Assembly: GCA_027622555.1 (NCBI GenBank)
Contig: JAQBYJ010000010.1
Coordinates: 1 to 64,000 of the forward strand
From: Verrucomicrobiota bacterium
GTDB lineage: Bacteria; Verrucomicrobiota; Verrucomicrobiia; Opitutales; UBA2995
DNA: 64,000 bases
Direction of reading: 5' to 3'
Shown one piece after another: positions 11,796 to 18,576 of this stretch. The first letter of the stretch is position 1. Each line of letters begins with the position of its first letter. The notes under the pieces were generated by a model that was not told the DNA's origin, ran no database searches, and was given only the letters and a program-made list of their open reading frames with translations. The position numbers were made by a program, and so were the translations under genes.

Positions 11796-13214
11796 ATGAA
11801 AAAGACCATACCTCTTTTGATTTTTCTCACATTTACAGTCGGTCAACTGCTTGCCCAGAAGACTGAGAAGCCCGCCATCGACGCAGCCCAGCTCTACCAA
11901 ACCTATTGCGCGGCATGCCACGGAGTAAATATGGAGGGTGCACAGCACGCACCGCTACGTAAAGATTACTGGGTGCACGGCCGTGATCGCATCCGCGTAT
12001 TTCGCAGCATCATGAATGGGATTCCTTCCACCGACATGATCCCTTGGTCTCAAGTTTTTTCCGACGATCAAGGTTATGCTTTGACGGATTACATTTTGGA
12101 AAACCAGACAGGTACACCGATTGAACTCAGGCCGATACCTACCCAAGTTCAAACGAAGGATTATCTCTTAAAGGTTGAGACACTGGCTCGTGAGGGGTTT
12201 TCCTCTTCGCCTTGGGGGATTGAGTTTGTTGATGAGAGGCGAGCCCTCATCACCGAACGACGTGGAGGTCTTCGTTGGATGGTTGATGGTGAGTTGGATC
12301 CGAAAACCATAACCGGGATTCCTCTGACCACTCAATATGGTGACTCCGGTATGCACGACGTCGCCTTGCATCCGGACTATAAAAATAATGGATGGGTCTA
12401 CATCAGTTATGTCCATTCTTTGGGCGATGGCTCTACCAAAGATACTCCTGCCATGACCCGTGTCGTGCGTGGACGTGTGAACGGTCATAGCTGGGTGGAT
12501 CAGGAAGACATTTTTCGCCTTCCCGATTCACTTCATTTTTCCAAAGGAACTCGATGGGGAAGTCGTCTTCTTTTCGACAAGGAAGGTTATCTCTATTTGA
12601 GCATAGGAGACATTGGTCGCAATGACGACGTTCAGCAGTTGAATAAGCCGGCAGGTAAAACGTACAGGGTTTTTCCCGACGGATCAATTCCTCCGGATAA
12701 CCCTTATGCTGGCCATCCGGATGCGATTGAAGAAATATTCACCGTCGGTAACCGTAACCTGCAAGGCTTTGCCCAGCACCCTGAGACCGGGGTAATTTGG
12801 GGAACCGAGCACGGACCCATGGGTGGGGACGAACTCAACGTTATCGCAAAAGGTAAAAATTATGGATGGCCGGTCATCTCTCACGGTATCAATTACAATG
12901 GGGAAAAAGTTTCAGAATTGACTCACAAGGAAGGCATGGAGCAACCGGTTAAATTCTGGACGCCTTCGCCCGCTCTTTGTCCACTCGAGTTTTATACAGG
13001 AGATCTGTTCCCGAAATGGAAAAACCACGCGTTCATTGGCGCGTTGGCTTTTGAGCAAATCAAACGGCTCGATCTTGGTAATTCGGAAGTGCTCTCGGAA
13101 GAAGTGTTGTTTGCAGGTTTTGGACGCGTTCGGGATATAAAAACTGGTCCAGAGGGTGCGCTTTATGTAGTGCTAAATAATCCTGATGCGGTGGTTCGGC
13201 TAACTCCAAATTAA
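11796..13214 (+). CDS. Cytochrome c / PQQ-type sugar dehydrogenase fusion protein (copy 1)
   Basis: A secreted 472-residue protein. A signal peptide ends near LLAQ (about 21). A class I cytochrome c domain follows, with the haem site CAACH (38-42) and a likely methionine ligand in the next 60 residues. From about 125 on there is a soluble aldose (glucose/sorbosone) dehydrogenase propeller: RGGLRWMVDG, DSGMHDVALHPDY, then EHGPMGGDELNVI, a segment that sits near the PQQ/calcium site in the family. The haem in front of the catalytic domain would pass electrons from the quinone cofactor directly. Many dehydrogenases of this group carry the cytochrome at the C-terminus, so the order is somewhat unusual. 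The next gene is a close paralogue 9 bp away. Confidence 0.82.
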   Translation: MKKTIPLLIFLTFTVGQLLAQKTEKPAIDAAQLYQTYCAACHGVNMEGAQHAPLRKDYWVHGRDRIRVFRSIMNGIPSTDMIPWSQVFSDDQGYALTDYILENQTGTPIELRPIPTQVQTKDYLLKVETLAREGFSSSPWGIEFVDERRALITERRGGLRWMVDGELDPKTITGIPLTTQYGDSGMHDVALHPDYKNNGWVYISYVHSLGDGSTKDTPAMTRVVRGRVNGHSWVDQEDIFRLPDSLHFSKGTRWGSRLLFDKEGYLYLSIGDIGRNDDVQQLNKPAGKTYRVFPDGSIPPDNPYAGHPDAIEEIFTVGNRNLQGFAQHPETGVIWGTEHGPMGGDELNVIAKGKNYGWPVISHGINYNGEKVSELTHKEGMEQPVKFWTPSPALCPLEFYTGDLFPKWKNHAFIGALAFEQIKRLDLGNSEVLSEEVLFAGFGRVRDIKTGPEGALYVVLNNPDAVVRLTPN

Positions 13215-13223
13215 ACGCCTATA

Positions 13224-14648
13224 ATGTGCCGACTTCTGGTCCTCCTCCTATTCGTTTCTTCGACTCATGCTCAGGAAGATGAAGAAGAGTCGAAAGCTTC
13301 AATCAACCCAGCCATACTCTACAAAACGTATTGCGCGAATTGCCATGGCGTAAACATGGAGGGCGCTCAACACGCACCTTTGATAAAAGATGTTTGGCTA
13401 TACGGTAGAGACAGAACCCATATGCTCCGCAATCTCATGTATGGCATAGCGAATACCGACATGATTTCCTGGGCACAGGTTATTGGTGATGCAGAGTGCG
13501 AATCGTTAATTGATTATATCATTGAAAGCCAGGATCGTCCACCGACAGAGATAAAGACATTTCCAACGGTCTTGCATACGGAGGATTATGATTTGCAGGT
13601 GGAGGCGCTGGTTGAGGACGGATTTCGTACTGCTCCGTGGGGGATCGAATTTGTGGACGATCGGAGGGCGTTGATAACTGAGCGACGCGAAGGACTTCGT
13701 TGGATGGTGGATGGCGTTTTGGATCCTGAACCTATTCACGGCATTCCGGTTGCTACTCATTACGGTGACTCTGGAATGTTTGATCTGGCGTTGCATCCAG
13801 ACTATTCGACCAATGGGCGGGTATACATTTCCTATGTTCATCCATTGGGAGATCCGGATTCTCGAGACACGCCTGCCATGACTCGTGTAATACGTGGTCG
13901 AGTGAACGGGCACCAGTGGGTCGACCAGGAAACTATCTTTAAGGTCGACGAAAAACTGCATATTAGTCCGGGGCGGGGACCTTGGGGAAGCCGTATGCTT
14001 TTTGACAAAGACGGATATCTTTTATTTTCGATTGGAGACAGTACCAAACTGGATCACGTGCAGCTTCTGTCCAGGCCGAGTGGTAAAGTGTTCAGGGTTT
14101 TCGCGGATGGAATGATTCCGGAGGATAATCCATTTGTCGGATACGAGGGAGCATTTGAAGCGATCTACGCTATAGGAAATCGCAATATCCAGGGAATGGA
14201 CCAGCATCCTTTGACGGGTGACTATTGGACTACCGAACATGGCCCCATGGGAGGCGATGAATTGAACGTCATTGAAAAAGGAAAAAACTATGGATGGCCT
14301 GTGATCACTCATGGTAGGGATTACACAGGAGAGCCTATATCTCTGTTGACTCATAGAGAAGGCATGGAGCAGCCAGTAAAATATTGGGTGCCATCGCCTG
14401 CGCTTTGCCCGCTGGAATTTTATACAGGAAATTTGTTTCCCAAATGGAAAAACCACGCGCTTTTAGGAGCCCTCAAGTTTGAAGAAGTACGCCGAGTAGT
14501 CATCCAGGGAGTTGAGGTGGTTTCGGAAGAAGTTATCCTAAAAGGCTATGGTCGTGTCCGTGATGTGAAATTCGGACCCGATGGCGCTCTTTATCTTTGT
14601 ATCAACCGTCCGGAACTCATCGTTCGATTAACGCCGATGAGTCATTGA
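13224..14648 (+). CDS. Cytochrome c / PQQ-type sugar dehydrogenase fusion protein (copy 2)
   Basis: This 474-residue protein repeats the layout of its upstream neighbour: short signal peptide (to about THAQ, 16), cytochrome c site CANCH (37-41), then the sugar-dehydrogenase propeller with REGLRWMVDG, DSGMFDLALHPDY and EHGPMGGDELNVI. Long blocks are identical to copy 1 (for example GVNMEGAQHAPL and KNYGWPVI), while loops differ, including the insertion KLHISPGRGPWGSR against SLHFSKGTRWGSR. The pair arose by tandem duplication and is surely one operon. Different loops suggest different sugars or aldoses, which is inference. The gene ends tail to tail with the redoxin gene, 16 bp apart. Confidence 0.82.
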   Translation: MCRLLVLLLFVSSTHAQEDEEESKASINPAILYKTYCANCHGVNMEGAQHAPLIKDVWLYGRDRTHMLRNLMYGIANTDMISWAQVIGDAECESLIDYIIESQDRPPTEIKTFPTVLHTEDYDLQVEALVEDGFRTAPWGIEFVDDRRALITERREGLRWMVDGVLDPEPIHGIPVATHYGDSGMFDLALHPDYSTNGRVYISYVHPLGDPDSRDTPAMTRVIRGRVNGHQWVDQETIFKVDEKLHISPGRGPWGSRMLFDKDGYLLFSIGDSTKLDHVQLLSRPSGKVFRVFADGMIPEDNPFVGYEGAFEAIYAIGNRNIQGMDQHPLTGDYWTTEHGPMGGDELNVIEKGKNYGWPVITHGRDYTGEPISLLTHREGMEQPVKYWVPSPALCPLEFYTGNLFPKWKNHALLGALKFEEVRRVVIQGVEVVSEEVILKGYGRVRDVKFGPDGALYLCINRPELIVRLTPMSH

Positions 14649-15786: not shown

Positions 15787-15984
15787 TTATAAAGATTTCC
15801 GGTGTTGAATGTTAATCAAGCAGTGCAGGATTCTGAGTGCTAATTCGTTCAGGTCAAGGTATACGCAGCAAGCTCAGGTGATCCTGGTTTAGAAATATTC
15901 CTGTGAAAAAGGGTAGATTGAGCTTTGTTTCCGTTAAACTACTCGATTGCGAATTGGAGCATTCTGTGCAATTTCTACCTTTCT

Positions 15985-17292
15985 ATGGTCAATTTACGAA
16001 AAATTCCTTCTGTCGCCGCCTTCTCATGCACCGTTTTATTAACAAGCTTGTTTTCAAGTGATTGGCCGCAATGGCGTGGCCCTGACCGTGACGGGACATG
16101 GAATGAAACTGGAATTATTTCCAGCTTCGATTCACCCAAGCTTAAACCAAAATGGAGCTCACCCATTGGATCGGGTTACTCCGGGCCTACTGTTAGTAAT
16201 GGTCGCGTTTATCTGACCAGTCGATTGGAGGAACCAGATCAAGTAGAGCAAATTCATTGCGTCGACGAAACTACAGGAAAAGAAATCTGGAAATATGTCT
16301 ACGCCTGCGAGTACCAGGATATCGGGTACCCGCTTGGCCCGAGAGCGGCTGTAGCTATTTACGACGGCAAGGCTTATGCACTCGGAGCGATGGGGCATTT
16401 TCACTGCCTGGATGCAAAAACAGGTAAGCTCATTTGGAAGAAGGATCTGATTGAAGACTATCAGGTCAGTACACCTGTTTGGGGTATCACCGCCTCTCCG
16501 GTAGTAGACGAAGAAAATGTTTACCTGCAAGTGGGTGGTGAAGGAGAATCTGTTGTCGTCGCATTTGATAAAGATACGGGTGTAGAGCATTGGCGATCAT
16601 TGGATGGTCTGGCCTCCTATTCGTCTCTGAAATTTATTGAACAGAATGGCGAGCGACTTCTATTGGCTTGGACAGGTGATTGGTTTTCAGCACTCAATCC
16701 GAGTTCAGGCAAACCAGCCTGGAAGCATGTTTTTAATCGGGCTAAAATGGCGATCAATGTTGCCGATGCGGTTTTGGATCCTAAAACAAATAGAATCTTC
16801 CTAAGCTCCTTCTATGATGGTTCCTATCTCTACCAACTTGATTCGAATTCATTGAGCTCCGAACTTCTTTGGGAGCGTCGTGGCAGAAGTGAAGTAAGTA
16901 CGGATGCACTCCACAGTATTATCAGCACCTCAGTAATCCGGGGAAATTATGTGTATGGTATTGATAGTTACGGTGAATTCCGCTGCCTCGATCTTGAAAA
17001 CGGCGATCGTGTATGGGAAGATCAGACCCTGCTGGAAAATGGACGTTGGGCCACGGCGTTTTTGGTTCAGAACGGGGAACGCACCTGGATCTTCACCGAA
17101 AAAGGAGATCTTGTGATAGCTCACCTGACACCAGAAGGATTCGAACGTATTTCTACTACCCATATTATTGATCCAACAACTTTCCTTCCAAGACGTAATG
17201 AAGAAGTCCTGTGGTCACACCCCGCTTTTGCCAACAAGCATATCCTTGCGCGCAACGATAGAGAACTGATTTCTGTGAATCTTTCGCAATAA
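15985..17292 (+). CDS. PQQ-like beta-propeller protein, secreted
   Basis: The 435-residue protein starts best at the ATG at 15985, because the sequence from there (MVNLRKIPSVAAFSCTVLLTSLFSS) is a signal peptide; a TTG at 15925 adds 20 unsupported residues. The mature protein opens with DWPQWRGPDRDG, the classic start of PQQ-like (WD40-type) propellers of planctomycete and verrucomicrobial genomes, followed by repeated blades with the pattern DAKTGKLIWKKD, DKDTGVEHWRS, LENGDRVWEDQ. There is no obvious catalytic domain and no haem site. Such propellers may bind PQQ or act as scaffolds like BamB. Convergent with the next gene at 9 bp. Confidence 0.8.
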   Translation: MVNLRKIPSVAAFSCTVLLTSLFSSDWPQWRGPDRDGTWNETGIISSFDSPKLKPKWSSPIGSGYSGPTVSNGRVYLTSRLEEPDQVEQIHCVDETTGKEIWKYVYACEYQDIGYPLGPRAAVAIYDGKAYALGAMGHFHCLDAKTGKLIWKKDLIEDYQVSTPVWGITASPVVDEENVYLQVGGEGESVVVAFDKDTGVEHWRSLDGLASYSSLKFIEQNGERLLLAWTGDWFSALNPSSGKPAWKHVFNRAKMAINVADAVLDPKTNRIFLSSFYDGSYLYQLDSNSLSSELLWERRGRSEVSTDALHSIISTSVIRGNYVYGIDSYGEFRCLDLENGDRVWEDQTLLENGRWATAFLVQNGERTWIFTEKGDLVIAHLTPEGFERISTTHIIDPTTFLPRRNEEVLWSHPAFANKHILARNDRELISVNLSQ

Positions 17293-17301
17293 ATATTGAA
17301 G

Positions 17302-18576
17302 CTAATTGATGCTTTCCAGGAAATCCTTGGTGACGATGTTAATAGCTTTAGACAGGTCTTTGATGTTTAAATTTGAGCTTACCCCTGAAATTGTGTTCGA
17401 GGCCAGATAGTCTTGGTCATCCGCTTCAATAGAAAAGGGCGATAACTCAAAAATTCCTTCACCCTCTTCCTGGTGATTTAGGAGCAGCTCATCCAATTCA
17501 TTCATGGCCGGACCGAACTTTAGCTGAAGGTTTTCAATAATTTCTTTCGCTTGGTTCTGATCCCGGTAGATCAAGCGTCTCATATGCTCCTTAACGTTTT
17601 TGTTATTGGGAAAAAGAAAATGATTTTCCATAGCCCATTCCAGGTTTTTGGAAAGATTCGCCGCTCGCCATGGGTTGTCCTCCATTAGGATTCTTTCAGC
17701 CATTTTACTGGCGACTTCACCATCTACCGTGAACCGGTTATTCAGGACCCATGTTCGAGCCGTTTCAGGATTTTCGTACATCTTTGTTTGAGCAATTGTG
17801 AGGAAAGATTGCTCAAGAATTTTCTTGGGCAAGTTATCTGCCAATAAGGATTCGTAAACCTCATTACCATATTCGTCATATAAACTTCTAATCGAATTTT
17901 GAAGAATGTAACCTACGTCCTCTCGCTCACCATACCGGATAAGAAATCCGTAAGGATCTTCCTCTGCGTAGACGGTAAACAGTGGAATTGCCAGTTCTCT
18001 CGATAGCTCATGGTTTTCAATTCGCTCAAACCAATCCAGGACCCCTTCACCTTCTTTATCCATCCAGAGGCGAAGTGCATTTTCATAGGTTTCGTCGTCA
18101 TATACAAATTCAGAACCGGTCAACAGTTCAATCGCTTTTTCAGCATCTGAAGAGGCGATTTGTGTGATAAGAAATGAAGCATAAATTTGAATATCCTCAT
18201 CGTATTCCTCAGGCATGGTTATCAGTGTAGCTAGATACTCACTAGCCTCGTTCACGTCCAAACTTACTAAATGCCGAAATTCCAAAATCCTATCTACCCT
18301 GCACGATGGAGTATCTTTATAACTTTTTTCTGATAGTAAAGTTGACCAGTATTCCCGGAGGATATCCTTTCTTTCAGGAGACGAAATCATGCCTTTTGAA
18401 GCGAAAATTATTTCTGTTATCTCGGACGTTTGATTTGCAAGTGTAGAGTTGTTTTCAAGATTCAAATCAACTGCCGGTTGGGCCGTTAACGGTTTTATGA
18501 ATTTTGATTTCGAAACATTTAAGACTGCATAAATAACGAGCGCTGAAAGAATGAGTACAGTTGAAAGCTTCTTCAT
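17302..18576 (-). CDS. Helical-repeat secreted protein with a TonB-plug-like C-terminal tail
   Basis: I do not recognise the main body. The 424 residues begin with a signal peptide or membrane anchor (MKKLSTVLILSALVIYAVL). Residues about 60-370 are helical and acidic, with irregular repeats of the type W...(D/N)P..A (for example EEDPYGFLIRYG, YENPETARTWVLNN, EDNPWRAANL), as seen in uncharacterised proteins of Verrucomicrobiota and Planctomycetota. Residues 373-424 (17305-17460) are quite different. They match the start of opitutal TonB-dependent receptors: FELSPFSIEA, then SNTISG, then NIKDLSKAINIVTKDFLES. In receptors this leads into the plug and a barrel of hundreds of residues; here the protein stops two residues later, and the convergent gene follows at once, so no receptor is hidden downstream. 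Confidence 0.75.
   Translation of the reverse strand: MKKLSTVLILSALVIYAVLNVSKSKFIKPLTAQPAVDLNLENNSTLANQTSEITEIIFASKGMISSPERKDILREYWSTLLSEKSYKDTPSCRVDRILEFRHLVSLDVNEASEYLATLITMPEEYDEDIQIYASFLITQIASSDAEKAIELLTGSEFVYDDETYENALRLWMDKEGEGVLDWFERIENHELSRELAIPLFTVYAEEDPYGFLIRYGEREDVGYILQNSIRSLYDEYGNEVYESLLADNLPKKILEQSFLTIAQTKMYENPETARTWVLNNRFTVDGEVASKMAERILMEDNPWRAANLSKNLEWAMENHFLFPNNKNVKEHMRRLIYRDQNQAKEIIENLQLKFGPAMNELDELLLNHQEEGEGIFELSPFSIEADDQDYLASNTISGVSSNLNIKDLSKAINIVTKDFLESIN

Follow-up and report, generated by a model that had tools for sequence, protein, structure and literature searches.

A helical-repeat protein encoded in a metagenome-assembled genome of the order Opitutales (Verrucomicrobiota) ends in the opening residues of a TonB-dependent receptor, and the same receptor segment was found in unrelated non-receptor proteins of the order, with a parallel in Bacteroidota. 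This recurrence points to a handle for the TonB motor that can be reused, more than to an isolated accident. For the helical-repeat protein itself, hereafter P0001, we consider it an even chance that the tail is a portable TonB-binding handle on a periplasmic solenoid, TonB binding and its consequences being what we infer. The broader pattern of segment-carrying non-receptors is better supported than a function for this particular tail.

The P0001 gene occupies positions 17302..18576 on the minus strand of the window (the whole 64,000-nucleotide stretch that was analyzed), as an open frame of 424 aa running from ATG to TAG; the plus strand carries many stops across the same interval. The initial annotation had the coordinates of the frame right, to which we add the minus strand and the TAG stop, included at 17302. 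A convergent PQQ_2 beta-propeller gene (15925..17292, plus strand) has its stop 9 nt from that of the fused gene, so that no barrel remnant is present. Beyond the tail stop, where these 9 nt are followed by the end of the PQQ gene, nothing receptor-like was seen, and the 83-kb contig (C10) gave no Plug match, in agreement with the earlier remark that no barrel follows. GC content is equal in tail and body, and the tail frame stays open through to its end with unremarkable base composition. In the adjoining gene region, two tandem paralogues, cytochrome c plus glucose/sorbosone dehydrogenase-like, are located at window positions 11796-14648.

Residues 370-424 (EEGEGIFELSPFSIEADDQDYLASNTISGVSSNLNIKDLSKAINIVTKDFLESIN) align end to end with the beginning of mature TonB-dependent receptors from other members of the order Opitutales, and match the beginnings of dozens of receptor frames of >1000 aa in the same and related genomes. 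One such receptor (G007:C106; EEEEEIFELSPFSIEAGEDDGYLATTTLAGSRIRSNVRDLGSSIAIVTRDFLEDTGA) is 56% identical to the tail and shares all 11 residues of the TonB-box region IFELSPFSIEA (residues 375-385; 17422..17454, minus strand). When 39 receptor N-termini were built into a profile from which the tail itself was left out, the tail scored 56.7 bits compared with 6.8 for the best of 1000 shuffles, which upholds its initial description as the start of an opitutal receptor; a receptor-segment profile gave 59.4 bits out of sample and the genome-wide profile search an E value of 2.9e-14. The residues that follow (386-424, DDQDYLASNTISG...KDLSKAINIVTKDFLESIN; 17305..17421, minus strand) correspond, in an alignment with 16 receptors, to a partly eroded plug start that runs to the stop. 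The plug-start half of the receptor profile matches the N-termini of FhuA, FhuE, FoxA and the pyochelin receptor in the PDB. With the register anchored by FhuA, FhuE and FoxA, ELSPF lies upstream of the plug start, and from this position, together with family knowledge, it would represent the receptors' TonB box. Since the stretch comes directly after the signal peptide in receptors (...AQ|EEEE...), the fused part starts at the mature receptor N-terminus. P0001 has no Pfam match to a complete plug domain (PF07715); the tail stops past the first plug strand.

The rest of P0001 is, as modelled, a membrane-anchored alpha-solenoid, probably with a periplasmic topology. In the AlphaFold2 model, residues 43-370 (17467..18450, minus strand) form an alpha-solenoid of paired helices with pLDDT of about 80, and the tail is disordered, with pLDDT below 50, as expected of a free handle. 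The modelled fused protein is all-helical and shows nothing of the 22-strand beta-barrel that is a feature of TonB-dependent receptors. The hydrophobic N-terminal helix (residues 2-24; 18505..18573, minus strand) is apparent in both sequence and model, and the orthologue has a TM-like stretch as well. The helical body proposed in the initial annotation therefore stands, but the signal peptide is, by its appearance, more probably an uncleaved signal anchor. The body has no sequence match in Pfam, NCBIfam or PDB; Foldseek searches with the body against PDB and viral models returned generic solenoids only, none at E <= 0.001. Part of the body resembles, weakly, verrucomicrobial helical-repeat proteins of the 'W..DP..A..W' type (best E 2.8e-4 per genome).

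A single orthologue of the body was detected, in a congeneric Opitutales MAG (CALGUT010000126.1; residues 68-388 align at 31% identity with E 1.3e-53), and no others in 372 genomes of the order or in wider genome and viral contig collections. Its end consists of about 30 residues unrelated to the tail, with no receptor-profile score, and nothing receptor-like lies downstream of its gene. A hidden tail at its C-terminus (...SSVVEVKDEFVPVDDRSKQEVRER), suggestive at first, was rejected because the receptor profile gives no hit there. As this sole orthologue is tail-less, the tail is an addition specific to one lineage, and the segment is not conserved among orthologues, of which there is this one. 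The tail-less orthologue, together with a tail that starts where the mature receptor N-terminus starts, supports the earlier suggestion that two genes were fused. Homologues sharing the tail were thus not found at the level of the orthologue, but the segment itself was found in unrelated non-receptors. The solenoid protein with a tail is known from one genome, a MAG, which counts against the handle reading.

The tail is 44% or more distant from all receptors sampled, and its nearest-neighbor identity is 56% against a median of 66% among receptors; judged by its sequence, it is no recent copy of any of them. Erosion is uneven: the half containing the box (up to Y) keeps 5/6 conserved receptor columns, whereas the plug-start half keeps 6/14 and its plug part is missing the conserved GTR and ED motifs. 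A kept box half next to a loosened plug half would count for a handle. On the other hand, the total of 11/20 columns is below that of every one of the 39 receptors (14-20), as in a decaying remnant, and counts against it. Since the box is best preserved and the plug start eroded, a plug mimic that binds a barrel, one of the options raised initially, becomes less likely; the adaptor option gains from the recurrence of the segment in unrelated non-receptors.

A search of the window's genome with the segment profile returned about 40 receptors and, as non-receptors, P0001 and two other proteins. For example, a YfbK-type VWA protein (G000:C56; PF12450, VWA, YfbK_C) carries the full segment EDDIFELSPFVVEEEDSLNYQASSTLAGTRINTNLKDPVGTIQVFTQEFLEDTGATDAAALQY at 80-86 bits, placed between a transmembrane helix and the VWA domain. 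Among YfbK linkers of the order, 10/32 outscore the best of 800 shuffled linkers, and these ten span three GTDB-style families (f1, f4, f21). In several of them the box alone is left, for example EDIYELSPFAVEA and ERVFDLSPFEVSS. Two observations count against a handle: some VWA linkers (L098, L092) retain the plug part alone with the box lost, and 20/32 linkers are without any of the segment. The genome profile search also placed the segment GEVYELSQFSVSEKEDRGYASDESMAGTKLKT in a DUF4139/MuiA protein, and EVIELSxF is found at the same DUF4139 site in two related genomes, each too short for significance alone. In the window's genome, the gene for DUF4139/MuiA (L033:1708-3351; G000:C38) is interrupted by an in-frame stop past NAQKSD, where the DUF4140 part gives way to the DUF4139 part, and is either a pseudogene or affected by a sequence error.

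Similarly, a small secreted family represented in two genomes (L126:2107-2859 and L134:1776-2681) carries the segment after the signal peptide, at 41 and 67 bits. Both proteins are barrel-less and show no significant Pfam match; they are homologous at 26% and share a domain that may be SIMPL/DUF541-like. An alpha-2-macroglobulin (L127:2822-8722; G045:C13) has ELSAF...SIAGTRMRT just before its A2M domain, a weak match of 19 bits in a single genome. Alpha-2-macroglobulins of Parabacteroides and Phocaeicola both lack a Ton-box-like motif, and the one of this pair scanned against Pfam has neither CarboxypepD_reg nor Plug, so that the alpha-2-macroglobulin case comes down to one weak hit. Two short frames (G000:C31:16644 and C116) were rejected as grafts because they belong to receptors broken by frameshifts; the receptors at L034:4474-4790 (G000:C31) and L035:1103-3458 (G000:C116) are split near the plug start. 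Overall, a receptor N-terminal segment in a barrel-less protein is found in P0001 and in carriers from other families. The initial annotation knew of no described protein with this layout, which is too narrow a basis for uniqueness, as the pattern recurs and the tail is one instance of it.

A comparable arrangement is found in Bacteroidota, where SusC-type receptors start with a CarboxypepD_reg domain and have the Ton box DEVVVTG (PMC7782687). In Bernardetia and Bacteroides finegoldii, YfbK-type VWA proteins start with CarbopepD_reg_2, followed by LEEVVVTGYSG or LEECVVVGYGTMKTKAMTGAY, and a DUF4139 protein of Persicobacter has CarbopepD_reg_2 plus LEEVVVVGYGTPAQGQLAGAVSGI inserted. The Persicobacter insert comes directly after the motif LPELKTYFLDYN, whose counterpart before the Opitutales DUF4139 insert is VPELGPVFLQPN. 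Ton-box forms in these carriers are EEVVVTG/EEVVVVGYG or ECVVVGYG. The Bacteroidota evidence consists of three proteins (two VWA, one DUF4139), all from plasmid records. With two non-receptor families in two phyla, each carrying the receptor N-terminus and box of its own phylum, chance or random fusion is a poor explanation, and selection for TonB contact could account for the pattern. Some vWA proteins were proposed as force transducers, with no mention of TonB boxes (PMC12204202). Among open-licence papers we found none that describes a TonB box on a VWA or DUF4139 protein; an earlier description may exist elsewhere.

Several explanations compete for the tail of P0001. It is quite possible, if short of an even chance, that the tail is a neutral remnant: one deletion would have fused the solenoid gene, with the frame maintained, to the start of a receptor gene, and another would have removed the barrel, leaving a functionless, decaying stretch. 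The lineage-specific tail, the coincidence of the join with the receptor's post-signal-peptide start and the loss of the plug part with its GTR and ED motifs all fit such a history, as do the other damaged receptors of the genome (C31, C116). However, the recurrence of the segment in unrelated non-receptors and a second phylum, and a box half kept at such distance from any sampled receptor, count against a remnant, and the still open frame with ordinary base composition also speaks against decay. An artifact is very improbable. The genome is in 238 contigs, as one might wish for an assembly chimera, but a chimera needs a pair of joins no more than about 165 bp apart, with the frame preserved at one, and would have to bring together a body and a tail of the same GC, although no sampled receptor is closer to that tail than 56%.

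It is unlikely, though less so than a chimera, that the tail acts as a decoy, lowering receptor activity by occupying TonB, or a periplasmic receptor-assembly factor, in place of the receptors. The kept box half and the receptor alignment serve this idea as well as they serve a handle, and a box with no barrel, sited at the inner membrane, would presumably stay accessible permanently. As one genome encodes receptors by the dozen and many TonBs, a single competitor would be a weak regulator unless abundant or specific.

If the tail is instead a handle, a membrane-anchored periplasmic solenoid would have gained the first 55 or so mature receptor residues at its C-terminus in one lineage, the portable element being the TonB box (IFELSPFSIEA) with the first plug strand. 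The C-terminal domain of TonB binds receptor boxes by beta-augmentation and then pulls (PMC11658791). By the same contact, it could bind the exposed box in the periplasm and thereby recruit the solenoid or couple it to TonB-ExbBD. Because the box sits on a membrane-anchored solenoid with no barrel to gate, recruitment or scaffolding near TonB-ExbBD would be the likely outcome, with competition against receptors as a variant. Candidate partners abound, with 20 TonB_C matches in the window's genome. Several frames of about 250-270 aa (G000:C62, C111, C218, C39) have two TonB_C matches each and are, by these matches, putative TonB proteins with tandem C-terminal domains.

In the usual view, TonB acts on receptors of the outer membrane and, besides these, on colicins, which borrow the box. 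Our observations hint at something broader, which we put forward tentatively and with somewhat less than even confidence: in Opitutales and Bacteroidota, TonB may act on or recruit non-receptor clients (YfbK-type VWA proteins, MuiA, the small secreted family, perhaps alpha-2-macroglobulin, and the solenoid) through receptor-derived handles. If true, resident envelope proteins in two phyla would carry receptor-derived boxes and TonB would have clients beyond transporters, opening a view on the function of widespread uncharacterized families such as YfbK and MuiA. Even as a mere remnant, the tail shows a route by which such grafts arise.

Among known systems, receptors of the FhuA/FhuE/FoxA type (Plug PF07715) share with the tail the TonB-box region, the GY.A..T(L/I)(A/S)G linker and the first plug strand; they possess a full plug and barrel, whereas the tail amounts to only about 55 residues at the C-terminus of another protein. 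The verrucomicrobial 'W..DP..A..W' proteins (for example L112 and L115; about 450 aa) resemble the body in their hydrophobic N-terminal stretch and helical repeats, but have no receptor tail, and their profile similarity to the body is weak. YfbK-type VWA proteins of Opitutales and Bacteroidota are, like P0001, non-receptor envelope proteins with the local receptor N-terminus and box; theirs is widespread and located in the linker or at the N-terminus, in contrast to the C-terminal segment of P0001, seen in one genome. In MuiA/DUF4139 proteins the receptor N-terminus is likewise inserted, at a corresponding site in Opitutales and Persicobacter, but internally and, in Opitutales, in shorter form. 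Finally, colicins with TonB boxes such as colicin M (PMC11658791) provide a precedent for a non-receptor protein carrying a TonB box, with the difference that colicins are imported toxins, whereas P0001 resides in the envelope and bears a segment derived from a receptor.
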